A DNA stretch of 55,091 nucleotides from Verrucomicrobiota bacterium (GTDB taxonomy: Bacteria; Verrucomicrobiota; Verrucomicrobiia; Verrucomicrobiales; Akkermansiaceae): positions 1-55,091 of the forward strand of contig JAGWXY010000004.1 of NCBI GenBank assembly GCA_018969605.1, given 5' to 3'. Shown here piece after piece: positions 10,420 to 54,792 of this stretch. Each line of letters starts with the position of its first letter. The stretch's first letter is position 1. A model generated the notes under the pieces. The model worked only from the letters and a program-made list of their open reading frames with translations. It was not told the DNA's origin and did no database searches. Made by a program: the position numbers and the translations under genes.

Positions 10420-10442
10420 GGTTTGGTTGATGTAAAAAAATT

Positions 10443-10922: not shown

Positions 10923-11299
10923 GCCTTGATCGTTGTTTTCGCGGATTTTGCGAGTTTCACCGGCCCGGGGCAGCAGCTACCTTCGCGTCGCGCCATACGC
11001 GCTTCCGTCCGCTTCAGATCCGACGCTCGCAGTCCGCTGCCGGGGAAGTTTTTCAACACCGCCCGCAACAAAGGCAAATGCCCGCGCGCAATGCGAAAAT
11101 ATGTCCACTTTCCGCAGGTCTCGCTCTCAAGCATGCCCGCCTTGCGGATGATTTGCACATGGCTTGATACCGACGACTGCGGCATTTCGAGGATGTCCGC
11201 CAATTCACAGACGCACAACGCACGATCCGCCACCAGACGGACAATCCGCCAGCGCGTCTCATCGGCCATCGCACGGAAAAATGCCAGTGGCTCACTCAT
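10919..11299 (-). CDS. arsR: ArsR-family arsenic-responsive repressor
   Basis: 126 residues, a winged-helix SmtB/ArsR repressor released from DNA by arsenite. The recognition region is DILEMPQSSVSSHVQIIRKA. The metal site motif is ALCVCELAD, the classical ELCVCDL motif with both cysteines. An extra CC pair sits in the basic tail (SCCPGP). The start at 11299 (MSEPLAFFRAM) fits the family; upstream in-frame codons run into the promoter. First gene of the operon, with a perfect palindrome CGAAAATTTTCG 17 bases upstream of the start as a possible operator. Confidence 0.93.
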   Translation of the reverse strand: MSEPLAFFRAMADETRWRIVRLVADRALCVCELADILEMPQSSVSSHVQIIRKAGMLESETCGKWTYFRIARGHLPLLRAVLKNFPGSGLRASDLKRTEARMARREGSCCPGPVKLAKSAKTTIKA

Positions 11300-11316
11300 G
11301 ACGGGATTTATCGTTA

Positions 11317-11328
11317 CGAAAATTTTCG
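11317..11328. promoter_or_regulatory. Palindrome upstream of arsR (possible operator)
   Basis: CGAAAATTTTCG is a perfect 12-base palindrome between the arsR start codon and the terminator at 11391. ArsR repressors bind short inverted repeats in their own promoters, so the position suits an operator. AT-rich palindromes of this size also arise by chance, so the call is tentative. Confidence 0.35.
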
Positions 11329-11390
11329 GGATGTCGAACTGAAAATGAATGAAAAATTTGCCCCTGCACCAAAAAGGGCGCTGTTTCACC

Positions 11391-11435
11391 AACACAAAAA
11401 AACCCGGCGGTTTCCCGTCGGGTTTTTTGTATTTG
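11391..11435. terminator. Intrinsic terminator ending the polysaccharide locus
   Basis: Hairpin CCCGGCGG/CCGTCGGG (one G-T pair) with loop TTT, an A-run on the left and a T-run on the right. For minus-strand transcription it lies 45 bases past the stop codon of the last polysaccharide gene and before arsR, so it ends the long locus and insulates arsR. It closely resembles the terminator after tex. Confidence 0.92.
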
Positions 11436-11479: not shown

Positions 11480-12127
11480 TTACCAAACGCTCTGTTTCAC
11501 ATAGATCACATCATAGGGCCTCACATAAAACGGGCTGCTTTGCGCCGATGTGAGCGTGTCGTTCATGTTGAGCAAATAGCGCATGCTTTTGCCATTCTGG
11601 TTGCGCACCAGCACGACTTGCTTCGGATTGGCCATGCGCGTGAATCCACCGCTTTCCATCACCGCCTCGAGCACGGTCATCGGACGATCAAGCGGGATCC
11701 TACCCGGCCGCAAGACTTCGCCCGAGACATAAACGCCCGCCGCGGCATTCTCCAAGGAAACCTGCACATTAGGGTCCTGCAGGTGCGGCTGATAACGCGC
11801 CATCAAGCTCGACTGCAGGCCCCCAATCGTCTGCCCAGCTGCCTGCACATCGCCAACCGTCGGCAAGCTCAACCTGCCATTGGCAGGAATCTTCTGCCGC
11901 GTGTCCAACTCAGGTGCCCCGCGAAAGGTCACCTTCACTTCATCACCCGGCGACAGGACACCGCCGAAGCCGGCGATCCTCGCTTCCGATGGAATGGCCG
12001 CCGAACTGCCGCCATTCCCGCAACCAACCACACCAGCGACCATTGCCAAGGCCGCCAAGGCTCCAATGATCAGACAACATGTCGGTTTGCATACTCCATC
12101 TTTACTTTTTGTCTTCATGATATTCAT
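11480..12127 (-). CDS. Wza-like polysaccharide export lipoprotein (short form)
   Basis: 215 residues. A signal peptide (CCLIIGALAALAMVAGVVGC) ends in lipobox VVGC, giving a lipoprotein at the outer membrane. The Poly_export domain starts at LSPGDEVKVTF and continues through PANGRLSLPTVGDVQAAGQT; one SLBB-type domain follows (GVYVSGEVLRPGRIPL...TVLEAVMESGGF). It is much shorter than E. coli Wza (about 380 residues): only one SLBB unit is present and the C-terminal membrane helix is missing, so the outer-membrane pore may need another partner. Last gene of the polysaccharide locus, far from the wzc-like gene at its other end. Confidence 0.88.
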   Translation of the reverse strand: MNIMKTKSKDGVCKPTCCLIIGALAALAMVAGVVGCGNGGSSAAIPSEARIAGFGGVLSPGDEVKVTFRGAPELDTRQKIPANGRLSLPTVGDVQAAGQTIGGLQSSLMARYQPHLQDPNVQVSLENAAAGVYVSGEVLRPGRIPLDRPMTVLEAVMESGGFTRMANPKQVVLVRNQNGKSMRYLLNMNDTLTSAQSSPFYVRPYDVIYVKQSVW

Positions 12128-31900: not shown

Positions 31901-32731
31901 TTTGAAATTTGCCGCCACAGCATCCTCTTCACGGATGGGTTTGCTAAAAATCACATTGATGTGTGCCAGATCTTCACGCGCGTCAATCTCCACAATCGCA
32001 GGTGCTGCTTTGCTGCCTTGTGGATCGATTTCTGTGGAAATTGCCGCAAGCCATTTGGCCGCCATTTTTTCATAGCCACTCACATTCGGATGCACTCCAT
32101 CGGCGATCAAGTCCTGCGCGCCAATCACGCCTCCGGGCAAACCACTGTTTCGCATGTCCAGAAATGACACATTTCTTCCTTTAGCAGCCAATTCCGCTAC
32201 CAAACTTGGAATCTGCTGATTGTAAGAAACTTGCACTACATCAAGTGAATCTGTGCGTGGAATCAGATTCGATACGATGATCTTCGTGTTAGGCCTTTCG
32301 TAACTAATATCCTCAACCAATGCCTTGAGCCGTTCGAAAGAAGTAGAAGCAGGATTGCCTGTCCATATGTCCACAGTTCCCGCCATGAGCAGCACCACAT
32401 CAGCTTGGCCAGCCTGCTTGAGCCACACGCCGATACCGTCACGCAACATGCTGATCGAATAGCCGGGATGCCCCTCGTGGTCCTTGTCAGGAAGTGCCGG
32501 ATCAGTATCGGTCTGGGTGCCAATGAAATCGGATACAAATCCGGCATTGCCAAGAAGGTTGCGCAAGGGAGCCCTGTATCCCCCTTGTACGTCGATGCAA
32601 CACCCTTGGGTAAGAGAGTCTCCCACAGGCAAGAACCGCAGTGCTTTCCAGTCAGTGACGGACTGACCAACAAGACTTACCCCAAATAAGGGTGCAAATG
32701 ACATCAACAATGCAAAACAGCTTTTTTTCAT
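28937..32731 (-). CDS. Secreted multidomain SGNH/GDSL hydrolase with Ig-like and jelly-roll repeats
   Basis: 1264 residues, with a signal peptide (MKKSCFALLMSFAPLFGVSL). SGNH domain at about 30-230: GDSLTQG (Ser39), Gly90, DGVHP (Asp211, His214). Block III reads GTVD in place of the usual GTND, so the oxyanion Asn is Val120. An Ig-like domain (about 235-330) and three jelly-roll units beginning GSFENNG, NGGFESG and NGGFEFG follow, with two cadherin-like Ig units (YRVVSGPSHGTIGG; FQVTAAPSYGILTG) and a C-terminal region with DPDGDGQ that looks calcium-binding. Likely an extracellular esterase or sugar O-acyl hydrolase held to glycans. No PEP-CTERM or membrane anchor is seen. Confidence 0.85.
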   Translation of the reverse strand: MKKSCFALLMSFAPLFGVSLVGQSVTDWKALRFLPVGDSLTQGCCIDVQGGYRAPLRNLLGNAGFVSDFIGTQTDTDPALPDKDHEGHPGYSISMLRDGIGVWLKQAGQADVVLLMAGTVDIWTGNPASTSFERLKALVEDISYERPNTKIIVSNLIPRTDSLDVVQVSYNQQIPSLVAELAAKGRNVSFLDMRNSGLPGGVIGAQDLIADGVHPNVSGYEKMAAKWLAAISTEIDPQGSKAAPAIVEIDAREDLAHINVIFSKPIREEDAVAANFKISEGVAVLQATLDPVTKRSVRLTTAPRIAGAVHFLGVSGVRDRRPEGNMIAIGSQRSFVTPLLLDGSFENNGQSWVASGDVAVVDQSVLAATNGLKWARFNSAGNAGNGSISQSFATTPGQIYRAEFDLGARAASALQRSMRIRIAGSGEILTKLENQSSISGGDPKWSKKSIEFTANSELTTIRFEDASVAVSGAEIMLDDVRVMPAINWSLSVNVEGPSALIIPMNSYLSGPSSLVAGVARSFADDDRVDLTATEKVGVYRFASWKENGTVLSSSRTISVRMHQQRSLVASYVAGPSLGEPSASDPDNEIANGGFESGTPTDFGTLTSWEVSGNVGAQPVGFSTTVPGFQPAYVPQEGLRMALFSAGNNDYAGAMSQAFATIRGATYLVKLKMGIVTEAAGRRQALQVSVADSGGAAILSRVEPLVSPGSGTTWMDFSASFVAAGTQTRLILSDQSEIFPLNQSYNSDLLIDGVSVTRQKSGSNPPTAKAQIASVTQDDFVPITLIAQDQDPSDVLTYRVVSGPSHGTIGGAPPNIVYNPASGYLGSDSFTFAASDGFSESAPAMVSIDVKGAAPLSNGGFEFGDVADFGTVDAWRTGGKNGSLPVGYTRSGQGITPSYSPSEGNRMLVFSAGSNEFGGSVSQRFATVTGQKYQLMYDMGVVSEASGRQQALAVSLYGRSSLPLINRTEVIQSAGAFSSWVPKIHEFVADGSNVLLTFLDQSGSYAESSTRNTDLLLDNVRIVPMAEPGVDPTAQSQSVELVENGSLPIFLIGSAGMAGLQPEFQVTAAPSYGILTGSAPNLVYTPNAGFSGADYFEFVVTDGSKQSQTAKVSINVIKKIFKFDQWMAGFGATGGLDANPDKDTIVNGIEYVLGTNPVKKTGTTFLPKSRITNADPDGDGQKSRYLVFSYRRTQASASDPDVTILVEWRANAKEGWRNVAYETGVIEKNQANRFAGGVDLVSVHIPRTITKSTKIFTRLRVVSKQ

Positions 32732-32848
32732 ATGATTATTCGATTGATTAGGCGGTTATAGTTTCACGACAGCAGACATTCTGAGTTCGGACGTCTGTGA
32801 AATGAATGACGACTTCGGGTATGTACGACCCTGCGCGAAAAAACGTTT

Positions 32849-33853
32849 TTACTTGTTTATGAATCCAATTACTTGACGCAACTGACACGCCAAATTTCTG
32901 CTTCGACTTATGGAGGCCTCTTCCGTCGGATGATAGATCGTGTCGAAGAAGTCGACCTGGGGCATTAGGACCTCGCGCATCCCACCCACCACATCTATTC
33001 CCTCCTTCAAATAGTACTCTCTCAATTGCGCCTCGACACTGTCGGCCATACCCGAATCGTATTCCTTGCGATGAATCATCGTGGGAAATCCCGCCATTAC
33101 ACGCACACGATTGGCTTTGGCCCAGCGCCTGAATTCAGTAATCAACTCAAATCCCGCGGCATCTGGTGAAATACCCTTTTTCAGAATCTCACAGACACGC
33201 TGGTCACGATCAACAGCCACCGTTGGACGCCGTGCGGCACAATGACCGGTCATGTCTCCATGATCGTTCAACCACGTGGCATCATAGGGATTGTACTCCG
33301 GTGTCGGTGTGATTATTTCGGGAAAGCATTTGCCTCTTATGCCCCTACCAATGCGTTCCAATGGAGTCATCAATGCTATCTCAATCTGATCGTTAAGTGG
33401 AAGATCACGGTAGTAATCAACATCGCGTGAGAGTATGAAATCGATGTATGTGATCGCAGCCCATTCACGACGGTTCTTTTCGCCAAAACCATACAACTCG
33501 TATTCGGGAAAAAGCATGACCGTATCCCCAGGTCTCAGCATTTTTTTTCCTACTCGCAAAATGCATGCCATGCCAAGGCCCGCATGTAGTCCACCATTGA
33601 TGACCGGTACGCCAAGTTCCGATTCGAGAACGGACGCCTTGATTCCAAAAAGCGTCGACGAACCGCCAAGAAGAACCAACTTTGGCCGATCAATCACACA
33701 TGCGGCTTTTTCTTTGTGGTCAATGATTTGTTTATTCCATGTGGAAGATGTGGTCGGCACGCCAAGCTGAAATCTCACCACCGACATGAAAATCAAAAGC
33801 CCAGCAGAGAAACCAAACGGAATCGCGCACAAGAATTTTTTTGGGCATCCCAT
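32849..33853 (-). CDS. DltD/AlgX-like SGNH partner of MBOAT acyltransferase
   Basis: 334 residues. A membrane-anchoring N-terminal helix (FLCAIPFGFSAGLLIFMSVV) is followed by a SGNH-like domain: LLGGSSTLFGIKASVLE gives the nucleophile Ser, NGGLHAGLG a block II Gly, and FFDTIYHPTEEA the Asp-His pair. Such proteins work with MBOAT proteins to O-acylate exported glycans outside the inner membrane. Seven bases separate it from the MBOAT gene, supporting one functional unit. Confidence 0.82.
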   Translation of the reverse strand: MGCPKKFLCAIPFGFSAGLLIFMSVVRFQLGVPTTSSTWNKQIIDHKEKAACVIDRPKLVLLGGSSTLFGIKASVLESELGVPVINGGLHAGLGMACILRVGKKMLRPGDTVMLFPEYELYGFGEKNRREWAAITYIDFILSRDVDYYRDLPLNDQIEIALMTPLERIGRGIRGKCFPEIITPTPEYNPYDATWLNDHGDMTGHCAARRPTVAVDRDQRVCEILKKGISPDAAGFELITEFRRWAKANRVRVMAGFPTMIHRKEYDSGMADSVEAQLREYYLKEGIDVVGGMREVLMPQVDFFDTIYHPTEEASISRSRNLACQLRQVIGFINK

Positions 33854-33859
33854 GCAGAA

Positions 33860-35398
33860 TCAAAAATTGAAGTATATGAACGGACTCGGTACGGCTGTGA
33901 ACCTGGAATACAAAAATCCGGTCAATAAAATACCGCCAGCCAGTCCATGTCGAAATCCAAGCCGGTTCGTTTCAGGCAACTGAATCTCCGTTAGATCTGA
34001 GCATTCACGCAGATTTGAAAAAAGCTGCCTGCTGTTTGGTAATGCTACCACGATAACGGACAGAACAGCCAAATGAAGACATACCCATAACCACCCTACC
34101 GGCGGATTTGGCATCGGAACGCCATTGAGAAATTCTACTAGAATGGGAATGTTTGTCGCCATTTTTGCCCAACGCTCCGGTATGCCTATGCCATCAAATC
34201 CCAACATTGCGCGTGACATGCGCAGTGCCGAAGCAACGTCATGCGCACGAAAAAAAACCCATGCAAACATAACAGCGGCCGTCGTAAGACACCATGCAAA
34301 TGCCGTCCAGACCTGCCCACCGGGTTTCCACCTCAAACTTTGGATCATGCTCTTCCAAGTAAGATGTGTTGCCAAATAAAATCCATGAAGCGCACCCCAG
34401 ATCACAAAGGTCCAGCCTGCACCATGCCAAAGGCCGCTGATCAAGAATACCAAAAGAATGTTGCGCGCCTGAATCCAATATCCACCACGGTTACCTCCAA
34501 GCGGGATATAAATGTAGTCGCGAAAAAAACGCGTTAGACTCATGTGCCAACGTTTCCAGAAATCGCTGATGCTTAATGCTTTATATGGAGAATTGAAATT
34601 GATCGGAAATCGTATCGCGAACATGGTCGCCAATCCGATCGCCATGTCGGAATAACCTGAAAAATCGAAATAAATCTGCAATCCGTATGCTATCGCTCCG
34701 ACCCACGCACTGAACCATGTCAGCCCGTCACCCTTGGCAACATGATTGAATATCCAATCGGCATGTACAGCAGCGGGATCTGCCAAAAGGGTTTTTTTGT
34801 ACAGCCCAACAAGGAAAATAGCTGTGCCCGTAGCAAGACATGCCCAATCGGGCTTAAGCTCGCGATTTGCATACTGTGGCACGATTTCGGAGTGACGCAC
34901 AACCGGCCCTGCAATCAGGTGCGGAAAGAAAACCACAAACAAACAATAATCAACAAAACCACAGCGCAAACTGGGTTTCTTAGCCACATCCATGAGATAG
35001 CCAATTTGTGTAAACGTGTAAAAAGAAATCGCCAGCGGTAAAACGATCGGGGCAATTTCAAAGGAAACACCGAACAAACTTCCAAGGCTTTCCTTGAACA
35101 TGTTCGAATACTTAAAGTGAAATAGCAATAGCAGGTTGGCGCAGATTCCCGCTATAGCCACCGGCCAATGCCCACGGCTTTCGGACTTCCGTCCAATCCA
35201 CTCAGCGAGCAAGTAGTTGAATCCCATGGAAAAAACTAGCAGCGCTGCACATTTCAAAGAAAACCATGCGTAAAAAACCATCGAGGCCGCCACCAGCAGA
35301 AGTTTTCTCGAGAATTGGAAACGGGACGGAATCAAATGAAATGCCACCACCGTCAACGGTAGGAAATACAAAAGAAAGTCCCAAGAAGTAAACGGCAT
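33860..35398 (-). CDS. MBOAT-family O-acyltransferase (AlgI/DltB type)
   Basis: 512 residues, a polytopic inner-membrane protein with about ten hydrophobic segments. FSGYSDMAIGLA and the His-containing LISGLWHGAGWTF, with the catalytic His, identify the AlgI/DltB/PatA group, which passes acyl groups across the membrane to an outside acceptor. The typical opening SWDFLLYFLPLTVVAFHL is intact. With the DltD-like gene it forms a polysaccharide O-acetylation module. Confidence 0.94.
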   Translation of the reverse strand: MPFTSWDFLLYFLPLTVVAFHLIPSRFQFSRKLLLVAASMVFYAWFSLKCAALLVFSMGFNYLLAEWIGRKSESRGHWPVAIAGICANLLLLFHFKYSNMFKESLGSLFGVSFEIAPIVLPLAISFYTFTQIGYLMDVAKKPSLRCGFVDYCLFVVFFPHLIAGPVVRHSEIVPQYANRELKPDWACLATGTAIFLVGLYKKTLLADPAAVHADWIFNHVAKGDGLTWFSAWVGAIAYGLQIYFDFSGYSDMAIGLATMFAIRFPINFNSPYKALSISDFWKRWHMSLTRFFRDYIYIPLGGNRGGYWIQARNILLVFLISGLWHGAGWTFVIWGALHGFYLATHLTWKSMIQSLRWKPGGQVWTAFAWCLTTAAVMFAWVFFRAHDVASALRMSRAMLGFDGIGIPERWAKMATNIPILVEFLNGVPMPNPPVGWLWVCLHLAVLSVIVVALPNSRQLFSNLRECSDLTEIQLPETNRLGFRHGLAGGILLTGFLYSRFTAVPSPFIYFNF

Positions 35399-36629: not shown

Positions 36630-37919
36630 TCAATTGAAATTGGAGGTTTCGCCCACTGCATGCTGCCATGAGTGATCTACCAACACCATATCGCGCCAAC
36701 CTTCGTGTCGTAGCTTTCCCGATCTATGAAAATCCCCGTCAATCACATCAATTGAGGCCGCATCTTCAATAAAATCCTCCATCACGCCATTGCTTCCCAC
36801 ATATGTATTAATGTGATAAGTTCCTTCCATCAATGGCCATTTAGGGATAATAAAATCAATCCTGCCTGGGCCAGAAACATCCAGCTTTTTTTGATGGACG
36901 AGAGCAGTGGAAAGCGCGATGTATGACCTCGCTTCTTTTTTGATCTCGACGCAAAAAATACAGTTTTCAACGGTAATTCCGTCACGGGTGACATATTCGA
37001 AAGAAATCCTTACTTCTGATCCGGAAATTGCTTCACGCATGACATTACCATCGGCATCGCGCATGGCGACACCAATAACTTGCACCCGACCTTTGCCAGC
37101 ACGATCCTTGCGTTCTTTGAGCGCAACTTTAACCAAATTTGCCCCGCGGGTCATGTAGGTTCCGATCACCTCATCCGTAGGACCATCGGCGATGATTCGG
37201 CCCTGATCCATAAGCACGCAACGATTACAAAGATTTTGAATGAGTGGCAGTTGGTGACTTACCAAAAGCACCGTTCGACCTTCGCGGGAGGATGCATCTT
37301 CCATCTTGCCTACACATTTTTTTTGAAACTCCGAATCACCAACCGCCAGGACCTCATCCACGATGAGTATCTCAGGTTCCAGGTGCGCAGCCACAGCAAA
37401 TGCCAACCGTACATACATTCCACTGCTGTACCTTTTCACAGGCGTATCGAGGAACTTTTCGACCTCCGAGAAATCCACAATTTCATCAAAGCGGTTTTTG
37501 ATTTCTCGTCGACTCATGCCAAGGATCGCACCATTGAGAAAAATGTTCTCCCTACCGGTAAGCTCGGGATGAAATCCAGTACCCACTTCAAGTAAGCTCG
37601 CCACCTTTCCGCGCAATTGAATCTTGCCACTAGTAGGCTCAGTGATCCGGCTAAGCAGCTTTAGCAATGTTGACTTTCCCGCCCCGTTACGGCCAATGAT
37701 CCCTACCATGCCGCCGCGCTCAACATCAAGGTTTAGGTCCTTCAAGGCCCAAAAAATCGATTTATTTTTTCCCCTTTCACCAAACATTCCGCGCAATATT
37801 CCCGTTGGCTTGCGAACCGCATTTTCAAGCAAATGTCGCAACCCATCTGACTTGTCACCACGCCTATCGAGAATATATGATTTCGATAGATTGCTAACGG
37901 AAATGATGGATTCACTCAT
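36630..37919 (-). CDS. wzt: ABC transporter ATPase of polysaccharide export (Wzt)
   Basis: 429 residues. The nucleotide-binding domain (about 1-240) has Walker A GIIGRNGAGKSTLLKLL, signature YSSGMYVRLAFA, Walker B EILIVDEVLAVGD and an H-loop in LLVSHQLPLI. The C-terminal half (about 260-425) is the Wzt_C carbohydrate-binding jelly roll, which recognises a terminal modification on the chain in ABC-type O-antigen export. With the Wzm permease it moves undecaprenyl-linked polymer across the inner membrane. The start at 37919 (MSESIISVSNLSKSY) is the usual ABC beginning. Confidence 0.96.
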   Translation of the reverse strand: MSESIISVSNLSKSYILDRRGDKSDGLRHLLENAVRKPTGILRGMFGERGKNKSIFWALKDLNLDVERGGMVGIIGRNGAGKSTLLKLLSRITEPTSGKIQLRGKVASLLEVGTGFHPELTGRENIFLNGAILGMSRREIKNRFDEIVDFSEVEKFLDTPVKRYSSGMYVRLAFAVAAHLEPEILIVDEVLAVGDSEFQKKCVGKMEDASSREGRTVLLVSHQLPLIQNLCNRCVLMDQGRIIADGPTDEVIGTYMTRGANLVKVALKERKDRAGKGRVQVIGVAMRDADGNVMREAISGSEVRISFEYVTRDGITVENCIFCVEIKKEARSYIALSTALVHQKKLDVSGPGRIDFIIPKWPLMEGTYHINTYVGSNGVMEDFIEDAASIDVIDGDFHRSGKLRHEGWRDMVLVDHSWQHAVGETSNFN

Positions 37920-37956
37920 GCGGCACTTTGTTTGGTGCAATTGAATTCAATACTCA

Positions 37957-39359: not shown

Positions 39360-40175
39360 TCAGATGATGTCGGCGAAAGTTTTTTCAGTTATCCTAAAAT
39401 AATACAATCCGCTCACGATCAATAGGGTGATGGATGCGACCGAGAACAAAATCTCAACTCCCGTAACGCTACTCTCGCCCAACAATGCGTATCTGAATCC
39501 GTCGATCACACCGGCCATCGGGTTGATGGCTTGGAAAAATTTCCATTTTTCAGGAACCTGTGTGCTGCTAAAACCGACCGGAGATATGTACAATCCAAAC
39601 TGCACGATGAACGGAATCACATAGCGGAAGTCGCGATATCTGACCATCAATGCCGACACCCAAACACCAGCACCAAAAGCGGTGCCGAATGCCAACGTCA
39701 CAAAAAATGGCAGGGTAAATATCCGAAAATCAGGCAGATGGCGGTAATAAACAAGCAATGACGCCAACAATACCGCGCTGATCATGAAATCAACAAAGCT
39801 GGTCACCACACTGCTGATTGGCACTACAAGCCTTGGGAAATACACCTTGGTGATCATACCTTGATTCGAAACAAGACTGTTACCGCTTTCGGCAAATGCG
39901 TTCGCAAAAAACTGCCATGGCAACATTCCGCACAAAACCATCAGGGGGTAAGGAACACCGCCCGATGCCATCCCTGCAAATTCTCCAAAAACAATCGTAA
40001 GCACGATCATCGTCAGCACCGGACGAATCACCGCCCAGGTAACGCCAATGACGGTCTGCTTGTATCTAACCAGTATGTCCCGCCATGCCAAAAAGTAAAG
40101 GAGCTCCCTGTATCGCCAAAGGTCACGCCAGTACTGACCGCGGTTCTTTCCTGCTTCAATCGTTAGCGTATTCAT
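39360..40175 (-). CDS. wzm: ABC-2 type permease of polysaccharide export (Wzm)
   Basis: 271 residues. YRELLYFLAWRDILVRYKQTVIG is the ABC-2 membrane coupling helix; about six transmembrane segments follow (WAVIRPVLTMIVLTIVF, PYPLMVLCGMLPWQFFA, SFVDFMISAVLLASLLVY and others). It forms the channel that Wzt powers. It overlaps the upstream glycosyltransferase by four bases (ATGA). The two ABC genes are split by the dehydrogenase gene. Confidence 0.95.
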   Translation of the reverse strand: MNTLTIEAGKNRGQYWRDLWRYRELLYFLAWRDILVRYKQTVIGVTWAVIRPVLTMIVLTIVFGEFAGMASGGVPYPLMVLCGMLPWQFFANAFAESGNSLVSNQGMITKVYFPRLVVPISSVVTSFVDFMISAVLLASLLVYYRHLPDFRIFTLPFFVTLAFGTAFGAGVWVSALMVRYRDFRYVIPFIVQFGLYISPVGFSSTQVPEKWKFFQAINPMAGVIDGFRYALLGESSVTGVEILFSVASITLLIVSGLYYFRITEKTFADII

Positions 40176-41167: not shown

Positions 41168-41725
41168 TTAGTCATCAATAGATATCCGACGCACAACCTT
41201 CGCCGGCACACCGCAGACCACGCTACCCTCGGGCACACTCTTGGTAACAACCGCATTGGCACCAACCACCGAACGCTGACCAATGCGAACACCTTTCAGC
41301 ACAACACACCCCTCGCCGAGCCACACGCCATCTTCAATAATCACTGGTGATGAAACCAAATCCCGACACAGGCGCGCCGGCAAGTCGTGGTGATCGAAAA
41401 CGTGATCATGATCGGTAATGTAGACCCTGCCGGCGATCAATACATCCTTGCCTATAACCACATGATTGGCAGCGCCGCAATGAAAATTGAATTGAATGCT
41501 TGTTCCATCACCAATCTCAATCGTACCACCATCTCTCACGACCTCGATCCTCGATCCCTTTCTTATGCTCACGCCTTTTCCAATTCGTACACTGGCGGTA
41601 TTTGTTAGCAATGCGGGCGAAGAGAGTCTCGATCGGAATCCGAATCCACCGAATCTCCACGACCATCTTACATAGTGCGCCACTGCGCCAACGCCGCGCC
41701 ACATACGTTGGCACTTACCTTTCAT
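41168..41725 (-). CDS. Hexapeptide-repeat sugar O-acetyltransferase
   Basis: 185 residues. Left-handed beta-helix repeats (VRIGKGVSIRKGSRIEV, TIEIGDGTSIQ) and the WbbJ-like end ITDHDHVFDHHD, VWLGEGCVVLKGVRIGQRSVVGANAVVT. The His in DHDH is the probable base. The start at 41725 overlaps the upstream membrane protein by four bases (ATGA). The acceptor is a sugar of the repeat unit or its precursor. Confidence 0.92.
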   Translation of the reverse strand: MKGKCQRMWRGVGAVAHYVRWSWRFGGFGFRSRLSSPALLTNTASVRIGKGVSIRKGSRIEVVRDGGTIEIGDGTSIQFNFHCGAANHVVIGKDVLIAGRVYITDHDHVFDHHDLPARLCRDLVSSPVIIEDGVWLGEGCVVLKGVRIGQRSVVGANAVVTKSVPEGSVVCGVPAKVVRRISIDD

Positions 41726-43014
41726 GTCGTTATCGGCATTGCGGCTATGCGTCGTTCTGAAGTTTTTTCCTCCAGTCCGATGAATCCGCTTAACCCACCA
41801 ATCAACACCCAATAAAATACATGCATCTGATCAAAATACGAAATCGATAGAAATGTCACCGTGTGCGCCGCCAAAGCGGAAGCCAGACACCAAAGTCTGA
41901 ATTTCTCGACGTTGCCTCGACGCCAATCATAAGGACCACGCATGATGTCATGGCCAAGCAAACGAAATGATCGCCACTGGATCGCAATCAAAGCGCCTGT
42001 CAATGCAAGGCCGCCGGTGATTCCGAGCTGAATGTAATAATTCGTGATGTCACAATGGTTTGGATCGCTCGCAAGCCCATAGGGCATCCAATGGCGGGTA
42101 AAGTCAGTGCCAAATGCCCACCACTCATCGAGATGCTGCACCGCCATATCGATCAGATAAGCCCGATGCCAGCCGGTACTTCCTCCGACAAAATCCATCA
42201 ATGCCATCAAGTACCACACCGGGCGATTCTTGATGAAGTGCATGAGCACCAATGCCACCACCATCCACACAAGAATTATACCGGCTTTCGATCTCCATTT
42301 CCATACGCACATGACAGCTATCGCAACCATGGCTGTGGCAATCGGACCACTCGATGATGTCGAAAAAATCGTCATGAACGCCGCGAACATCGCTACCAAT
42401 GCGAGGCCTTTTTTCTCACGCCAAATCGATACAAGAAATGGCAGTGAAGTCGCGGCCACGGTCCCGGCAAGAATCGGCGTACCGAACGAACCCTGCGCAC
42501 GAATGCGCCCGTCACGCACGATTGTCACCAACGATTGCCCGCCAAAAAACCGATATGGATTATTGCCCGTAAGCCTCTCATAAAACATAATTAGGCCAAA
42601 AGGAATCAGTACGACTGCAAGGCCAATGGCAAATCGCCCCAGCGCCTCTCTTTCCGTCAAATAGGCACGGGCAAATAGATAAGTACCGGCCACATCCAAC
42701 GAGATTCTCAATCGCGTGATCAAGGCATCACCGCCATTCCAAGGATGAGCAAACCCGCTCAGCATTACGATCATGACAAAAAGCCCAACCAATCGGTCAA
42801 TCGGATGCGAGGCATCAATCTTCATAAACCCTGCCGACCAAGCCCTCAAGAATCCGGCGATGATCACAATCCGCACAACCGTGAACGATCCCGCAAACGG
42901 CACATACGGCGTATGACATGCCGCGATGAGCAAAGGCAGAAACGCCCATCGATACGGCAAACAGAACTGCATGCCTGCAAGCAGCAGGCTGAATATGAGC
43001 ATCGTTGCGTTCAA
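41722..43014 (-). CDS. O-antigen ligase/polymerase-like membrane protein
   Basis: 430 residues with about eleven hydrophobic segments. A large periplasmic loop follows WYLMALMDFVGGSTGWHRAYLID, where an Arg-His pair occurs in GWHRA as in WaaL/Wzy_C proteins. It could polymerise or ligate undecaprenyl-linked repeat units. In a locus exported by an ABC transporter a ligase role is more natural than a Wzy role, but the sequence does not separate them. Confidence 0.82.
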   Translation of the reverse strand: MNATMLIFSLLLAGMQFCLPYRWAFLPLLIAACHTPYVPFAGSFTVVRIVIIAGFLRAWSAGFMKIDASHPIDRLVGLFVMIVMLSGFAHPWNGGDALITRLRISLDVAGTYLFARAYLTEREALGRFAIGLAVVLIPFGLIMFYERLTGNNPYRFFGGQSLVTIVRDGRIRAQGSFGTPILAGTVAATSLPFLVSIWREKKGLALVAMFAAFMTIFSTSSSGPIATAMVAIAVMCVWKWRSKAGIILVWMVVALVLMHFIKNRPVWYLMALMDFVGGSTGWHRAYLIDMAVQHLDEWWAFGTDFTRHWMPYGLASDPNHCDITNYYIQLGITGGLALTGALIAIQWRSFRLLGHDIMRGPYDWRRGNVEKFRLWCLASALAAHTVTFLSISYFDQMHVFYWVLIGGLSGFIGLEEKTSERRIAAMPITT

Positions 43015-46630: not shown

Positions 46631-47541
46631 GGAGTTTCACGATTTGTAATTGTACTTATTTTAAAGTCTTTTATTGAATATTTGGAACGAAGGAACATCT
46701 GCTTCATGCGCTCGATTTGCTCGAGGCGCAGGTGTTCTTTGACCGCCTCTGGCACGATGGATTTTTTGCGCGTGATCCATCCTGTGAGATAGCCGCACCA
46801 CCATGCGAAAGATCCAGCGACGCATGGAGCATCACCGATCCGGCTGAGGCATTTGACAATCTCGAAGCATGGGTGGTATCCAACCGCAAAGTCGCGCAAG
46901 CCCATTTGCCAACGACGCTTCAAAATGTTTCCCTGCGAGATATTGCGCGGCTTGAGATGATCGACCACCAATTCGCTCAACAATCTCGTTCTGTATCCTG
47001 CCATCCGTGCCATGGCACAGGCAATGCCATCCCATCCACCCTCGGGGATCGCAATCAAACCACCTATGGCATCGAAACATTCCTTGCGAAAAAACTGCAC
47101 CGCACCCGGTATATCCAAGCGGTTTCGAGGCACTTGCTCACGTGATTCGCCGGGGTCGACCACTACACCACCGGCAAGACCAAGCATGGGATCGCACTCA
47201 AAAATCCACATGGTCTTTTCATAATAATCCGCATCAAATATCACATCCGCATCAAGCAAACCAATATAGTCATGATCCGTTGATTCCAATTGCGAAATCG
47301 CCGTCATGGTATTGATGACCACCGAAGAAAAACAACGCCCTTCCCGAGGCGGCAGCTCCAACAATCGGATCCAAGGATGCTTATGAAGATAACCACGAAC
47401 AATTCGATTGGTACCATCGGTCGATCCATCGCTCGCAATGACCCACTCGACTGGCCTGATCGTCTGCGCCACGACCGCATCGATTGTCTTACCAATGCTT
47501 TGCTCCTCGTTTTTTACGGGTGTCACGAGCACATAGTTCAT
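46627..47541 (-). CDS. Glycosyltransferase family 2
   Basis: 304 residues. MNYVLVTPVKNEEQSIGKTI, IASDGSTDGTN and YIGLLDADVIFD, then IPEGGWDGIACAMARMAGY form a GT2 domain of the succinoglycan/EpsF-like kind. A hydrophobic patch near GSFAWWCGYLTGWIT may touch the membrane. The start is set by the ATGA overlap (47538-47541) with the upstream gene. Confidence 0.9.
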   Translation of the reverse strand: MNYVLVTPVKNEEQSIGKTIDAVVAQTIRPVEWVIASDGSTDGTNRIVRGYLHKHPWIRLLELPPREGRCFSSVVINTMTAISQLESTDHDYIGLLDADVIFDADYYEKTMWIFECDPMLGLAGGVVVDPGESREQVPRNRLDIPGAVQFFRKECFDAIGGLIAIPEGGWDGIACAMARMAGYRTRLLSELVVDHLKPRNISQGNILKRRWQMGLRDFAVGYHPCFEIVKCLSRIGDAPCVAGSFAWWCGYLTGWITRKKSIVPEAVKEHLRLEQIERMKQMFLRSKYSIKDFKISTITNRETP

Positions 47542-48038
47542 TGAATCGCCCATGACTTTCTGTTTTGATGAATGAAATCCCGAATGCTTGCAGTGAGACT
47601 TTCCTCGGCATGACTGCAAATAGTAACGAAGTTTTTCTCATCATCAATGCCCCGAAGTTTTTCAACCAACTCTCGTTCGTCGAGCGCGACATCGATACCA
47701 TCAATGGATTCAAGCATCCTTGCCGTGTCCATCTGGTGATCATTTCTTGTTTCACCCATTCCGCCCCTTCTTGGCATCACCAACAAGGGAGTTTTGAGTT
47801 GCAACGCGGTGAGAATAGTCCCCATACCCGCATGACCAACTACTACCCGTGCTGCCTTCACATGATGCGTGAAATCTCGTGGGCCAAGCATATCGGAATA
47901 TGCGACAAACTGCGGTTTCCATGCATTTTTTCCGATCTGCGCGAACACATCACGTCGGCCATTGCCAAAGGCCCAACGGTCAACTGTTTTGATCAATCGG
48001 TCAAAAGGCGTGTCGCTGCCAACGGTCACAAATATCAT
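47538..48038 (-). CDS. Alg13/PssE-like glycosyltransferase subunit
   Basis: 166 residues. MIFVTVGSDTPFDRL, then GHAGMGTILTALQLKTPLLVMPR is the C-terminal donor-binding half of the MurG/GT28 fold. In Alg13/Alg14-type enzymes this half binds the nucleotide sugar (UDP-GlcNAc in eukaryotes, a UDP-hexose or uronic acid in PssDE). It works with the Alg14-like partner encoded directly upstream, with a four-base overlap. Confidence 0.93.
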   Translation of the reverse strand: MIFVTVGSDTPFDRLIKTVDRWAFGNGRRDVFAQIGKNAWKPQFVAYSDMLGPRDFTHHVKAARVVVGHAGMGTILTALQLKTPLLVMPRRGGMGETRNDHQMDTARMLESIDGIDVALDERELVEKLRGIDDEKNFVTICSHAEESLTASIRDFIHQNRKSWAIQ

Positions 48039-48523
48039 GTCAATGCACTGCTGTTCAAAACCGCTCCGCGAAAATGCGGACCACCATCGCCAGTCAGATG
48101 CCGCCACTGGGTCAGACATAGATCCGAAAATCGCATAGCTTTACGACCTGAGGCAGAGAGACTTCCGGCGTTCGCCATGCTGTCGAGCCACAAGGTACGC
48201 GCACCGACAAGCTTGCCAAACATCACCGCAAATAAACCTGGCGCCGCGCCAGTCGTCACGACCACCTCCGGTCGCAATTTCATAAGCAAACGCCCAACAC
48301 CAAACGCCGAATGCATCAAGCTCCACATGCTCCACAAATTTCCATTTGGTATGCGCACGAATCTGCAATCCTCTACATCTGCCGCGTATCCATCGTCCAC
48401 CGTGGCATAGGTCACATCACACCCGTCGAACGCAGAGCGTATCCTGAGCAACTGAATCCAATGCCCGCCACCCGATGAAACAGCCAGCACCTTCGGCTTT
48501 ATTTCAATTTCGACACCCTTCAT
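48035..48523 (-). CDS. Alg14/PssD-like membrane-anchoring glycosyltransferase subunit
   Basis: 162 residues. KVLAVSSGGGHWIQLLRI is the glycine-rich N-terminal half of the GT28 fold, and KLRPEVVVTTGAAPGLFAVMFG and GARTLWLDSMANAGSLS complete the PssD/Alg14 pattern. It holds the acceptor lipid and recruits the catalytic partner. The start ATG 48523 overlaps the stop of the phosphoglycosyltransferase gene by one base (TGATG). It probably adds the second sugar to the lipid-linked first sugar. Confidence 0.93.
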   Translation of the reverse strand: MKGVEIEIKPKVLAVSSGGGHWIQLLRIRSAFDGCDVTYATVDDGYAADVEDCRFVRIPNGNLWSMWSLMHSAFGVGRLLMKLRPEVVVTTGAAPGLFAVMFGKLVGARTLWLDSMANAGSLSASGRKAMRFSDLCLTQWRHLTGDGGPHFRGAVLNSSALT

Positions 48524-49965
48524 CAGCACGCCCCCCTGCTCGTCAACACCGCTGGAATCGTTTTCAACAAAATCTGCATATCAAGCCACAGCGACCAGTT
48601 TTCCACATAGTCCTGATCCATCCGCATCCATCGCGCGAAAGACACATCACTGCGGCCGCTTATCTGCCAAATACAGGTCATACCAGGCTTCACCGAGAGC
48701 CGTTTGCGAAACATCCACTCGTATCGATCAACCTCATCCGCTAGTGGCGGGCGCGGACCCACCAGACTCATCTCACCACGCAGCACATTGATCAACTGCG
48801 GCAACTCATCGAGGCTTGTCCTGCGCAAAAATTTCCCAACACCCGTAACGCGAGGGTCGTTCTGGATCTTGAACACCGGCCCATCAACCTCATTGAGATG
48901 AATGATGGAATCACGCATTTGCTCCGCGTCATCACGCATCGATCGGAATTTTATCATGCGAAATGTCCGCTTGTTCAAGCCCACCCGCTCCTGGGTGAAA
49001 AATACCGGACCCCTGCTCGTCGCCTTGATGCAAACAGCAATGATGAGAAAAACCGGACACAAGACCAACAGCAGAATCGATGAAAGCACGACATCAAGCA
49101 CGCGTTTCATGAACAACTGCCCAATCATCCTCTCGCGAAACATGGTGATGACAAATTCATCGTCAAAATGCTCAAAATGCATGCCATCGAGAATCCGGCG
49201 TTCCACCGCACCCGGCACCAGTCGCATAACTACCCCAAGATCACGCGCATAACCAGTGACGCGGGCAATCTCATCGATCTTAGAATCGATCGGCAAACAG
49301 GCAATGATTTCATCGACACTCTCGCGCTCCAGAATTTCCCTCAATACGTCAATTTTTCCAAGTACAGGCCATTCCTTTCGTCCGGTCGATGGCTCGGGTG
49401 ATTCCTCTGCCGTATTCTCATCGACAAATCCGACAATGCGAAACCCGAGCTCTGGCTTTGATACAATCTTACTCGCGACCCTCAAGGCGTGATCGTTGAT
49501 GCCCACAAACAGCAAGTTTCTGAAGTTGTAACCCGATTTCCTAGCGCCAATCACCACCGACCTCACCAACAACCGACTCGCGGCACCACCCGTTCCAACC
49601 AACGCAAAAAACAACGCTAGAGACGCACTATCCATGCCGAAGCCGGGTACCAGCAAGGCGATCAGCATCAGCCACAAACACGCAACGCCGCTGGCTTTGA
49701 TGAAATCAACAATCTCTGCCGAAAAGGGCACGAAACGGTCGGCCCGGTAACGCACAAAATGATCATGGATGAACACCCATCCGGTCATCAGCACGATCAA
49801 ACCCGCGGCATTCGCAAAAAAGGATCCAAAACAGCGATCCGTCAGTCCATTCACACCCGAATCAAGAATGACCGGCCGCATCACCACCCACAACGCCACC
49901 GCAAGAATCAACTGATCCGTGAGCCTCAGCATGCGGATCAAAAATTTGTGGCGAAGCCTCGTCAT
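48523..49965 (-). CDS. Polyprenyl-phosphate sugar phosphotransferase (WbaP/WcaJ type)
   Basis: 480 residues. The N-terminal part has four membrane segments (for example TDQLILAVALWVVMRPVIL, AAGLIVLMTGWVFIHDHF) and a cytosolic Rossmann-like domain with LLFVGINDHALRVA. The C-terminal bac_transf domain begins KRVLDVVLSSILLLVLCPVFLI and contains FFTQERVGLNKRTF, TSLDELPQLINVLRGEMSLVGPRPPL and PGMTCIWQISGRSD, with the Asp-Glu dyad in LDELPQ. It puts the first sugar phosphate on undecaprenyl phosphate. It is followed by the Alg14/Alg13-like pair, whose product would be the second step. Confidence 0.95.
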   Translation of the reverse strand: MTRLRHKFLIRMLRLTDQLILAVALWVVMRPVILDSGVNGLTDRCFGSFFANAAGLIVLMTGWVFIHDHFVRYRADRFVPFSAEIVDFIKASGVACLWLMLIALLVPGFGMDSASLALFFALVGTGGAASRLLVRSVVIGARKSGYNFRNLLFVGINDHALRVASKIVSKPELGFRIVGFVDENTAEESPEPSTGRKEWPVLGKIDVLREILERESVDEIIACLPIDSKIDEIARVTGYARDLGVVMRLVPGAVERRILDGMHFEHFDDEFVITMFRERMIGQLFMKRVLDVVLSSILLLVLCPVFLIIAVCIKATSRGPVFFTQERVGLNKRTFRMIKFRSMRDDAEQMRDSIIHLNEVDGPVFKIQNDPRVTGVGKFLRRTSLDELPQLINVLRGEMSLVGPRPPLADEVDRYEWMFRKRLSVKPGMTCIWQISGRSDVSFARWMRMDQDYVENWSLWLDMQILLKTIPAVLTSRGAC

Positions 49966-50010: not shown

Positions 50011-52209
50011 TCAGTTCGCACACAGCCACGATGGCACATCGGATCGAGCCTTGTTGAAAACGCAAGAAACATCGGCCTTGCCTTTGGTCAGCTCGGAATA
50101 GGTCCAGACGAGCATGTCCTTGATGGTGTTTTCAGCATCGAGCACCAGCACGACCTTGTCCATCAACGCTGCCATGGTAAGCGTGCGACCGGATTTCTCG
50201 ACCGATGGCATTTCAAAGATGATGTAGTCATACGGGCTGTCCTGCATTTCCGGCAGCATGCGGCTGAACTGCACGGCATTGATACCGCGGGCTCCTAGCC
50301 CGATCCCATCGCCGCTGGCATGGAAGAGGCTGCGCTCGTTGTTGGCAAAGTTCGGACTTTCCGCCATGCGCAGCGCACGGTTGAGCGTGCATTTTTGGCC
50401 ATCGGCATTATCATCGCCGCCGACATCAAATGCACTGAGATCCACCCACAAGACCTTTGCTCCTGGGATTTCGGAAAACGACTTTGCCAAACCCGCAGCG
50501 ATCGTGGTCGTGCCCGATCCGGCGCACAGGCTCGTGACCGCGATGAGCTTGGGCTTGTGTGTGATCCGGTTTGCTTCGAAATCAAAAATAACCCTGTCAC
50601 GAATGGTCTCGGCATAAGGCAGAATGAAATGCCTCGCGTCACCCGCGTGAGGATCACCGGGTGGCGCGACCTCATCACTGTTTCCAAGCAAAGGAGTGTC
50701 GCCGAAGGTGAGGAAATTACCGCCATCCGCATCGCGAAGATACGGGATGCACGACATCAACGGAATGCTCAAGCGCCTTTCGATCTCATCAGGACGCTTC
50801 ACACGCTTGTCGAGCAATAGCTCCATCAGCAATGCGAGCGCAAGGCCCAGCGAAATACCGCCCCCAGCCAAGCCCATGATGATCTTGTTCTCGCGCTCGT
50901 CATAATATCGAAACGGCTCGGTCGGCTGCTGCACGATCGTGATGTTTGGCATCCTCGATGGATCAAGCGTCTGGTCGACCTTTGCATTCTTGAGATTCGC
51001 CTCAAGATTGCGGTACTCGGCATCTTCCATTTGTCTCTGCCTCTCAAGCTCCTCAATGCGCGAACCGATCGCGTATTGCTCGCTGAACTGCGTGGAAATT
51101 TCTTTGAGATGGTTTTCAAACACCTTGATCTTTGCCGCATACGCCGCAAGCCGAGCCTGTTCGATGGATTGACTCCAGAGAGGATTGTTCGAATCGTCTT
51201 TGGTGCCAGCGGCCAGCATCGGATACGCGGCAACCAGCGCTTGGCGCTTCGATTCGCATTGAGCGATCTGACTGCGGTTCAATTCAAGCAATCGGTTGCC
51301 AGGCTTGAACTTGATTCGCAACTCGATGTCTCGCTTGCGCAGGAAATCCAACATTTCCAGATTCACCCGATACTCGGCAAACACCGAAGATGTGATGCCC
51401 GATGCGGGATCTGATGGACCGGATGGACCCACAACCCGATCACCAGCGCCGGTCGGCTTCTGCCTCAATGATTCGATTTTTGCCTGCTGTTCCGCGTATT
51501 CCGCACGCACTTTGATGAGCTCTTCGTTGGTCGACGCCCGCTGATTGGCGAGGGTGCCGGTCGCCTCACCGAGCGAGGTGATACCGGATTCCGTGCGCAA
51601 CCTGTTGAGCTTCTGTTCAGTCTGGCCGAGCTTCTCTTTCACCTCCTTGGTTTGGTTCGCAATGAGATCAAAGGCCGCTGCCGAACGGTGAATCAAAAGG
51701 TGCTTCTGAAAATACGCATCCATCAGCTTGTGCAGGACCTCCTTGGTCACTGCCGGATCACCGTGCGAGTATTTGACCAACAACACATTGTTGCTCTGGC
51801 CCACCACAACCTTGAGGTGGCCAATCAGCTCGGCAGCCGCCTTTTCAAAATCTCGCTCGCCCTTAAGACCCGGTGAAATTTTCTCAACCCCGACATCGCG
51901 CGCAACCTCAAGCGCAAGATCCATGCTGGTGAGAATCTCGATCTCGGTCTGAATCACCTGATCCGCCTTCGCCGCACCTGGATTCTGACGCGCCTCGTAA
52001 GGATCAACCGCACCGCGCTCGAGCACATATCGCACCAGGAGCTTGGCATCGGAGGCATAAACCGGCTTGCGCGAAAAATGCATCCACGCAGCCAACAGTA
52101 ACCCGCACAGCGCGAGGGAAACAATCAGCACACGCCGACGACGCAAGGCATACAAAATATCATGTAATCCGACAGCCGAGGAATGATTCGTTTGATAATG
52201 GTTTGGCAT
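50011..52209 (-). CDS. Wzc-like chain-length protein with degenerate BY-kinase domain
   Basis: 732 residues. Wzz-type region with two transmembrane helices (about 26-45 and 435-462) around a long periplasmic coiled-coil part (EVKEKLGQTEQKLNRLRTES and EELERQRQMEDAEYRNLE). The C-terminal P-loop domain resembles a BY-kinase but is altered: Walker A reads AGSGTTT where PGEGKST is expected (Lys lost), A' reads VDLSAFD instead of DxDxR, and Walker B reads FEMPSV with Asp replaced by Glu. The C-terminus (SWLCAN) has no tyrosine cluster. It probably acts as a structural chain-length or export scaffold, not as a kinase. Confidence 0.9.
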   Translation of the reverse strand: MPNHYQTNHSSAVGLHDILYALRRRRVLIVSLALCGLLLAAWMHFSRKPVYASDAKLLVRYVLERGAVDPYEARQNPGAAKADQVIQTEIEILTSMDLALEVARDVGVEKISPGLKGERDFEKAAAELIGHLKVVVGQSNNVLLVKYSHGDPAVTKEVLHKLMDAYFQKHLLIHRSAAAFDLIANQTKEVKEKLGQTEQKLNRLRTESGITSLGEATGTLANQRASTNEELIKVRAEYAEQQAKIESLRQKPTGAGDRVVGPSGPSDPASGITSSVFAEYRVNLEMLDFLRKRDIELRIKFKPGNRLLELNRSQIAQCESKRQALVAAYPMLAAGTKDDSNNPLWSQSIEQARLAAYAAKIKVFENHLKEISTQFSEQYAIGSRIEELERQRQMEDAEYRNLEANLKNAKVDQTLDPSRMPNITIVQQPTEPFRYYDERENKIIMGLAGGGISLGLALALLMELLLDKRVKRPDEIERRLSIPLMSCIPYLRDADGGNFLTFGDTPLLGNSDEVAPPGDPHAGDARHFILPYAETIRDRVIFDFEANRITHKPKLIAVTSLCAGSGTTTIAAGLAKSFSEIPGAKVLWVDLSAFDVGGDDNADGQKCTLNRALRMAESPNFANNERSLFHASGDGIGLGARGINAVQFSRMLPEMQDSPYDYIIFEMPSVEKSGRTLTMAALMDKVVLVLDAENTIKDMLVWTYSELTKGKADVSCVFNKARSDVPSWLCAN

Positions 52210-52252: not shown

Positions 52253-53035
52253 TCACTCGGGCGCACCGGCATTCATCTCGTCGCCAAATATGGAGTTTCT
52301 CAGCACGCAAAAAACCTGGCGCAGCAACACGACCGGTGTTTGCAGCATGATTTTCAAATCCAGCCACGGCGAACAGTGACGCACATAGGACGCATCCATC
52401 GCGTTCATTTCGACAAAGGTCGAAAGCCCCCGACCCTTGATCTGAAACAATCCGGTCAGCCCCGGCAACACATCAAATCGCCGCCTCTGAATCGCAGTGA
52501 AAAAACACAACTCAGCAGGCAGGCAGGGACGCGGGCCAACCCAACTCATGTCACCCCACAGAATATTGATGATCTGCGGCAACTCGTCCAAACCCGATGC
52601 ACGCAACAAACGCCCACCCGGGATCAATCGCGCATCACGCGCCAAATCAAGCCTCAGCAATGGCGAACCCGCGCGCACCAGATTCCCGAAATTCCGATCT
52701 TCCGGCACACCATACGCATCAATCCTCATCGTGCGAAACCGGTACATCGGAAAACAGCGGCGGTTCCTTCCGATCCTGTCCTGCCTCACCATTACCGGCC
52801 CGCGCGACACGGCGGCAATCCACAAACCAACCAACACCATGCACGGCAAGGCCACCGGCAAACTCAAAAGCAACAGCACCGCATCAAGCACATGTTTCCA
52901 AATCGGTATGCGGCATCCCTCATCAGCCGGCCCCTGCACATCAGCAGCCATGCCGCCAAATTTTCGCGACGCATCCAGATCGCGACGGTAAAACGGACCT
53001 ATGTGCATGGCGGTGAAATGGAAATTGACATTCAT
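52253..53035 (-). CDS. Polyprenyl-phosphate sugar phosphotransferase (short form)
   Basis: 260 residues. One reentrant membrane helix region (VLDAVLLLLSLPVALPCMVLV), then RGPVMVRQDRIGRNRRCFP, GLDELPQIINILWGDMSWVGPRPCL and LPGLTGLFQIKGRG: a monotopic phosphoglycosyltransferase without the N-terminal membrane domain. It transfers a sugar-1-phosphate to undecaprenyl phosphate. As first gene of the locus, with a second initiator two genes on, it may start a different glycan or act first on another sugar. The start at 53035 is the longest; an ATG at 53008 is also possible. Confidence 0.93.
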   Translation of the reverse strand: MNVNFHFTAMHIGPFYRRDLDASRKFGGMAADVQGPADEGCRIPIWKHVLDAVLLLLSLPVALPCMVLVGLWIAAVSRGPVMVRQDRIGRNRRCFPMYRFRTMRIDAYGVPEDRNFGNLVRAGSPLLRLDLARDARLIPGGRLLRASGLDELPQIINILWGDMSWVGPRPCLPAELCFFTAIQRRRFDVLPGLTGLFQIKGRGLSTFVEMNAMDASYVRHCSPWLDLKIMLQTPVVLLRQVFCVLRNSIFGDEMNAGAPE

Positions 53036-53493: not shown

Positions 53494-54792
53494 TTGACCA
53501 CCGGATTTTGCCACGCGAAGCTCGCGGCCTTGGATCATCCGCTTACAGCGCTTTTTGTCGATTGCGACTCGTTTTTCGCATCGGTCGAACAACACCTGGA
53601 CCCTGCCCTGCGCGGCCGCCCGGTAGGTGTCGCTCCGGTGATGGCAGAGTCATCTTGCTGCATCGCGGCTTCCTACGAAGCCAAGGCTTTCGGAGTCAAA
53701 ACTGGCACGCGGATCAGCGACGCGCGAGTGCTTTGCCCCGGCATCGCGATCGTGGAATCCAAACCCGCCGAATACATCGCCATCCATCATCGCGTGGTCG
53801 AAGCGGTCGAGGATTGCATCCATGTCGAACAGGTCCTGAGCATCGACGAAATGTGGGCATGGCTGCCCTTCAACCGACGCGATCCAGCAACAGTCGAAAG
53901 CATCGGCAGAAAAATCAAAGCCACCGTCACCCGCGAAATTTCTCCTTTCATCAAAGTAAGCATCGGCGCCGCACCAAACAAGTACCTCGCGAAAATGGCT
54001 TCAAAGATGCGCAAGCCCGACGGGCTGTTCATCATCGAAAGCAAGGACCTGCCGCAGGTGCTCTACGAACTCAAGCTGCGCGACCTCACCGGCATCGCGC
54101 GGCGCACCGAAGCGCGCTTGCACGCGGCCGGTATTCACAACGTCGAGGCACTTTGCAATGCGCCAAAACATCTGCTGCACGGAGTATGGGGCGGCGTGCT
54201 CGGCGACCGACTTTGGCACCTGCTGCGCGGCGACGAAATCCCCGAGCTCGTCTCCGCCCGCAAATCCATCGGCCACTCGCATGTACTGCCACCCGAACAC
54301 CGCCACCCAGACAAGGCATGGCCGATCCTTTGCAAGCTGCTTCACAAAGCCTCCGAACGACTGCGCTCCCACGGCCTGCTCTGCGGCGCTCTCACCATGC
54401 AAATCGCCTACCTCCGAGGCCCGGCATGGGCACCGGAAATCCGCATGCCCGAGACCGACTCAACACTGCGCCTGATGCACCTGCTAGACCGCCTCTGGCG
54501 CGAACGACCCGATCCGCGCGAGAAGATCCTCCATGTCGGCGTCATGCTCACACGCCTTGTCACCCACGACAACCACACGCCCGAGTTGTTCCAAAGTTTC
54601 GTCGCCGAATCAATGGAATCAACCGAGGACATTACCGAAGAAAAACTCCGGCGCCTCGATGTCACACTTGATCAACTGCGCGCCCGCTACGGTCGCTCGG
54701 TCGTATACTTCGGCGGCGTTCAGGAAAGCCGCGACACCGCTCCGATGCGAATTTCATTCACCCACATCCCCGACATCCGCGTGGAAATGTGA
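53494..54792 (+). CDS. Y-family translesion DNA polymerase (DinB/UmuC-like)
   Basis: 432 residues. Catalytic palm motifs: FVDCDSFFASVEQ near residue 22, VLSIDEMWAWL near 117 (the SIDE box; usually SIDEAFLD) and KVSIGAAPNKYLAKMASKM; the thumb HhH region is KLRDLTGIARRTEARLHAAG. It copies damaged DNA at the cost of errors. The start is the TTG at 53494, just after the LexA box; an in-frame TTG lies at 53530. The altered SIDE box and C-terminal part suggest a branch apart from classical DinB; no RecA-like or UmuD partner is nearby. It is plausibly SOS-induced. Confidence 0.92.
   Translation: MTTGFCHAKLAALDHPLTALFVDCDSFFASVEQHLDPALRGRPVGVAPVMAESSCCIAASYEAKAFGVKTGTRISDARVLCPGIAIVESKPAEYIAIHHRVVEAVEDCIHVEQVLSIDEMWAWLPFNRRDPATVESIGRKIKATVTREISPFIKVSIGAAPNKYLAKMASKMRKPDGLFIIESKDLPQVLYELKLRDLTGIARRTEARLHAAGIHNVEALCNAPKHLLHGVWGGVLGDRLWHLLRGDEIPELVSARKSIGHSHVLPPEHRHPDKAWPILCKLLHKASERLRSHGLLCGALTMQIAYLRGPAWAPEIRMPETDSTLRLMHLLDRLWRERPDPREKILHVGVMLTRLVTHDNHTPELFQSFVAESMESTEDITEEKLRRLDVTLDQLRARYGRSVVYFGGVQESRDTAPMRISFTHIPDIRVEM

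Follow-up and report, generated by a model that had tools for sequence, protein, structure and literature searches.

Export in Wzy-type systems is considered to depend on phosphorylation cycling of Wzc, the PCP-2a BY-kinase of E. coli, and polysaccharide co-polymerases (PCPs) of the PCP-3 type by definition lack a cytoplasmic P-loop domain. E. coli Wzc forms octamers when dephosphorylated or as the K540M variant (PMC11986026, PMC12881504), and octamerization of the Y-kinase domain promotes Wza engagement (PMC12881504). In EcpK/EpsV of Myxococcus xanthus and HfsB/HfsA of Caulobacter, a protein with the BY-kinase fold but without Walker motifs or Tyr tail serves the co-polymerase (PMC12004946). 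Fused pseudokinase PCP-2 variants are also already known, among them SMc01795 and VV1_2305 (Cuthbertson et al., as described in PMC12004946).

The window considered here, the whole analyzed stretch of 55,091 nucleotides from a member of the Akkermansiaceae (Verrucomicrobiota), encodes a protein, P0001, that shares with Wzc its fold, the order TM–periplasmic domain–TM–P-loop domain, and an OPX partner in the locus, but lacks the Walker A Lys, the DxDxR motif, and the Tyr tail (Table 1). EcpK and HfsB are separate proteins, whereas the pseudokinase of P0001 is part of the fused PCP and has far more of the P-loop left. By their description in PMC12004946, SMc01795 and VV1_2305 resemble P0001 in joining PCP and pseudokinase in one polypeptide; the present clade differs from the variants so described in belonging to the Verrucomicrobiota and in including ABC exporter loci. 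The PCP-3 protein KpsE, which works with KpsMT, likewise has an ABC exporter and OPX in its locus, and its periplasmic core can be aligned with that of P0001 (Z about 12.5); however, KpsE has no cytoplasmic P-loop domain, while P0001-type loci carry a Wzy_C protein and polyprenyl-type initiating transferases. Among solved structures, the best sequence match is PslE of Pseudomonas aeruginosa (9v6l, E 8.2e-9, best stretch residues 122-495), a match essentially to the periplasmic part and TM2, with an insignificant alignment of the C domain. We consider it probable, at roughly 0.6, that P0001 is an ancient fused PCP-2 with a BY pseudokinase, acting as a phosphorylation-independent oligomerization scaffold.

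Table 1. Features of the window, with motif residues numbered as in P0001.
Feature	Coordinates	Strand	Basis or remark
P0001, fused pseudokinase polysaccharide co-polymerase (PCP-2-like)	50011..52209	-	732 aa; Pfam Wzz, Foldseek vs Wzc, 28 orthologs aligned
Degenerate Walker A AGSGTTT, residues 563-569	50503..50523	-	Lys position 567 is Thr
Degenerate Walker A' DLSAFD, residues 590-595	50425..50442	-	no DxDxR
Walker B FEMPSV, residues 665-670	50200..50217	-	Glu here, Asp in 42/47 homologs
Sugar-phosphate transferase	52253..53035	-	260 aa; Pfam Bac_transf E 3.7e-47; adjoins PCP in most relatives
Polyprenyl glycosylphosphotransferase	48523..49965	-	480 aa; NCBIfam TIGR03025 404 bits, over cut-off; synteny
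Alg14/PssD-like glycosyltransferase subunit	48035..48529	-	profile matches, synteny
Alg13/PssE-like glycosyltransferase subunit	47538..48119	-	profile matches, synteny
Wzy_C-family protein, putative polymerase or ligase	41722..43014	-	weak Pfam E 0.012; homology to Wzy_C of Wzx loci
Wzm, ABC exporter permease	39360..40175	-	Pfam ABC2_membrane E 1.4e-17
Wzt, ABC exporter ATPase with Wzt_C	36630..37940	-	Pfam ABC_tran E 1.7e-23, Wzt_C E 6.8e-13
OPX (Wza-type outer membrane export)	11480..12127	-	215 aa; Pfam Poly_export 9.9e-16 and SLBB; opposite end of cluster

An alternative start of the P0001 ORF is possible at 52272, though relatives favor the one at 52209. The Wzz domain is recovered by Pfam (E 4.9e-9, 36.8 bits against a cut-off of 25.5); the C-terminal part yields sub-threshold P-loop matches only, and the NCBIfam BY-kinase model eps_fam scores 30.5 against a cut-off of 108.05. 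An AlphaFold2 model built from 29 sequences (mean pLDDT 77) places TM helices at residues 26-45 and 438-466, flanking a large periplasmic domain; its pTM of 0.43 means that domain arrangement and oligomer state are not predicted. Foldseek returns full-length matches of the model to Wzc (E 1.8e-19), and the C domain reaches Z 19.4 to CapA1B1 and 19.0 to the Wzc kinase domain (range 18.5–19.4 including Etk). The modeled fold is thus that of a BY-kinase PCP from which the catalytic motifs are missing, and the earlier note's view that the kinase was lost and the fold kept agrees with these scores of about 19 against CapB, Wzc, and Etk kinase structures. Assignment to an XrtA/PEP-CTERM system was rejected: the XrtA models are the best in NCBIfam but fall far under their cut-offs (73.5 vs. 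278.85 for the PCP; 96.2 vs. 180 for OPX).

The PCP gene lies between two sugar-phosphate transferases, followed by the Alg14/Alg13-like enzymes and the Wzy_C protein, and much of this gene order recurs across the phylum. At least 15 relatives have OPX on the same contig as the PCP, and in most complete loci it lies at the opposite end of the cluster. The window Wzm is 61-72% identical to Wzm in other typed ABC loci. The window Wzy_C protein belongs with its homologs from Wzx loci, the alignment having 61 near-invariant columns, several Arg and His among them. The earlier note was right that the locus carries an ABC exporter, Wzm/Wzt being real; the locus is not simply of the ABC type, as it also has OPX and the Wzy_C protein, which had gone unmentioned. 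No partner phosphatase was shown in the window. An LMW-PTP-like ORF (9973-10521) was considered as a Wzb phosphatase and rejected, its nearest match being thioredoxin-type arsenate reductase, at 147.3 bits and short of the curated cut-off; together with an ArsR-family regulator it forms an ars-type pair beside OPX (9973-11395) that could be mistaken for Wzb. Elsewhere, the stretch 28937-35398 encodes a 1264-aa protein combining GDSL lipase, DUF642, and Ig-like domains; a 334-aa ORF with no Pfam match and a DltB-like MBOAT acyltransferase come next, and together these may be an O-acylation module. A Y-family DNA polymerase-like gene (IMS, IMS_C) lies on the plus strand just outside the cluster (53494-54792). 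In one close relative (L056:2407-3859, G176:C128), the 480-aa transferase beside the PCP is split into two ORFs by a frameshift or assembly error.

Scanning genome contigs with P0001 gave only two near copies, and whole-genome searches were needed; run at the levels of family, order, and phylum, these found orthologs not only in several genera within the family but also in further families of its order and phylum. Motif counts leave out matches in G389, G555, G722, and G549. Position 567 is Thr in 16, Ala in 10, Val in two, and Asn in one of 29 aligned orthologs and Lys in none; Lys is also absent from 19 further homologs across the phylum, for a total of 48/48 without the Walker A Lys. Because this position is never Lys in the homologs, its loss in P0001 is neither chance nor sequencing error. 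Both flanking Gly of the P-loop are invariant in the 29 aligned sequences. In A', the first Asp (590) is kept in 27/29, while the second Asp and the Arg are absent; most homologs have a VDLSS-like motif, and a distant member (L195) has IIDADVD, which may be a vestige of a kinase ancestor. The C-terminus of P0001 (ending ...FNKARSDVPSWLCAN) lacks a Tyr cluster. Translation and alignment thus bear out the earlier note on the coordinates of the gene, the Walker A motif without Lys, DLSAFD in place of DxDxR, and the missing Tyr-rich tail. Its broader statement that all kinase motifs are altered holds for P0001, where Walker B has Glu, but is fully true in few lineages only: Walker B is Asp in 42, Glu in four, and Asn in one (L193) of the 47 homologs covering this stretch, and the Asp is kept in 27/29 aligned sequences. 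The carriers of Glu are the window species, its close relatives G176 and G381, and, separately, G224. L193 (G735) is the most degenerate member seen, with a destroyed P-loop (GTNANDAS instead of GxGxST) in an otherwise retained protein.

Under the scaffold reading, P0001 would assemble into an oligomeric ring, probably an octamer like that of dephosphorylated Wzc K540M, and the cytoplasmic P-loop domains of P0001 would provide the assembly platform; naturally without Lys and Tyr tail, P0001 should sit on the assembly-competent side. The ring would dock on OPX and guide chain length and export without tyrosine phosphorylation; if cycling is needed, binding and unbinding could supply it, in line with the proposal for EcpK and HfsB (PMC12004946). 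Rather unlikely, though the best placed of the alternatives, is a nucleotide-gated switch, in which phosphorylation is absent but ATP or ADP is bound, perhaps slowly hydrolyzed, with the nucleotide state controlling assembly of the ring. Nucleotide binding could retain a role, given the preserved G-x-G-x-S/T-T skeleton: conservation is high across P-loop residues 560-575 (JSD 0.69), including the invariant Gly pair, and most sequences keep the Walker B Asp; moreover, Wzc K540M entries 9exo, 9exq, and 9i2q are titled as MgADP complexes, so that loss of the Lys need not abolish binding. Set against this are the near-universal lack of DxDxR in A', the Walker B Glu of the window species, and the vanished loop of L193, which implies that nucleotide binding is not needed in all members.

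Canonical BY-kinases coexist with the pseudokinases in most genomes. In 24 of the pseudokinase-bearing genomes, a further PCP has the full set of canonical features (GEGKST, DADLRRPRLH, VDSPP, and a Tyr tail, which in L059 reads YQYYTSYYTYY); these intact motifs in the same genomes indicate that the alignment and motif calls for the pseudokinases are sound. On the tree, the pseudokinases group in a single clade separate from the canonical kinases (support 100). A BY-kinase over the cut-off is also present in 25/28 genomes, and the copy in the window genome (at C21) adjoins its own OPX, outside any glycan cluster. This distribution would suit trans-regulation, whereby a canonical BY-kinase PCP encoded elsewhere in the genome either joins the pseudokinase PCP in mixed rings or controls it. 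We regard this as improbable: P0001 has no Tyr tail to phosphorylate, the two types of protein align end to end at only 18% identity, and the pseudokinase is kept in three genomes with no BY-kinase over the cut-off (G178, G168, and G176; assemblies only 88-95% complete), for which reason it does not seem to need a canonical BY-kinase.

Transporter genes vary among pseudokinase loci. Wzm/Wzt genes, downstream of Wzy_C, are found in 10 of the 26 loci typed on the PCP contig (G000, the window genome, and G146, G076, G069, G139, G182, G135, G158, G013, and G394), and a Wzx-type flippase in the other 16 (G178, G174, G039, G019, G125, G056, G114, G006, G108, G064, G149, G379, G385, G224, G700, and G735); two more loci have Wzx on a partner contig (G079 and G138). 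In G149, G379, and G385, Pfam recognizes Wzx less strongly (E 9e-15 to 9e-9). Most typed relatives thus have a Wzx/Wzy-type pathway, while the window species has Wzm/Wzt for Wzx and keeps the Wzy_C protein. No Wzx was found elsewhere in the window genome, the sole PF13440 match being MurJ (E 6.6e-117) and PF01943 giving none. In G120 (L053, L054, L099; G120:C126:102000-161999), a complete-looking locus with PCP, OPX, and Wzy_C, neither Wzx nor Wzm/Wzt was recognized. Alongside Wzx, G174 has an ABC pair of a second type close to its OPX; a pair about 65% identical to it, WzmB/WztB, occurs in the window genome (L129, G000:C62:8826-10810), and orthologs lie near an OPX gene in G174, G076, and G176.

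On the PCP tree, transporter type changes at least three times in all; every ABC locus is nested within one 16-row subclade, and every typed group outside it has Wzx. By this topology, loss of the Lys predates the ABC exporter and cannot be explained by it. The earlier note had proposed the reverse, that the loss fitted P0001 to ABC export as a PCP-3-like scaffold. Wzm/Wzt in the window locus and nine others speak for this, as does the true PCP-3 KpsE, which encloses KpsMT as an octamer (PMC11041684). We nonetheless judge it very unlikely, since the ABC loci are derived and the expected co-occurrence of lost motifs with wzm/wzt fails in the homolog alignment, the 16 same-contig Wzx loci having lost the same Lys; the P-loop domain absent from PCP-3 is, moreover, kept here and exceeds the periplasmic domain in conservation (mean JSD 0.63 vs. 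0.49). The ABC exporter as cause of the loss is thus contradicted, but PCP and Wzm could be in direct contact within the ABC subclade. That P0001 is a decaying, functionless remnant, as the vanished catalytic motifs might imply, deserves almost no credence given the retention of the protein across the phylum, the higher conservation of its C domain, and a C-domain dN/dS of 0.07-0.09 between the window and near relatives (a rough value, as dS is near 1). The C domain is under strong purifying selection and represents a kept pseudokinase.

Returning to the phosphorylation-independent scaffold, these loci probably encode, judging from the missing ATP-binding Lys, a chain-building machine that runs without tyrosine phosphorylation, whichever transporter feeds it. 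Its PCP/OPX/Wzy_C chassis appears to accept either Wzx or Wzm/Wzt, the latter in the window species. More tentatively, and with the odds still leaning against it, Wzm/Wzt may have displaced Wzx from a Wzy-type pathway in one Akkermansiaceae subclade and may now supply lipid-linked glycan to a Wzy polymerase that was kept and to a phosphorylation-free PCP-2/OPX export ring, making the pathway a hybrid of two textbook export routes. The ABC loci would represent such a hybrid if the Wzy_C protein is a polymerase; if it is a ligase, the PCP would regulate another step.

As far as the literature searched shows, it is new that a pseudokinase clade spans the phylum and coexists with canonical kinases, and that Wzm/Wzt takes the place of Wzx while the PCP/OPX/Wzy_C chassis stays unchanged. 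A clade without phosphorylation cycling, in genomes that mostly encode a canonical BY-kinase PCP as well, would offer a natural comparison of the two modes. The division between PCP-2 (Wzy) and PCP-3 (ABC) assumes that the PCP/OPX ring is not indifferent to the inner-membrane transporter, and the transporter exchange in otherwise matching loci makes that indifference testable.
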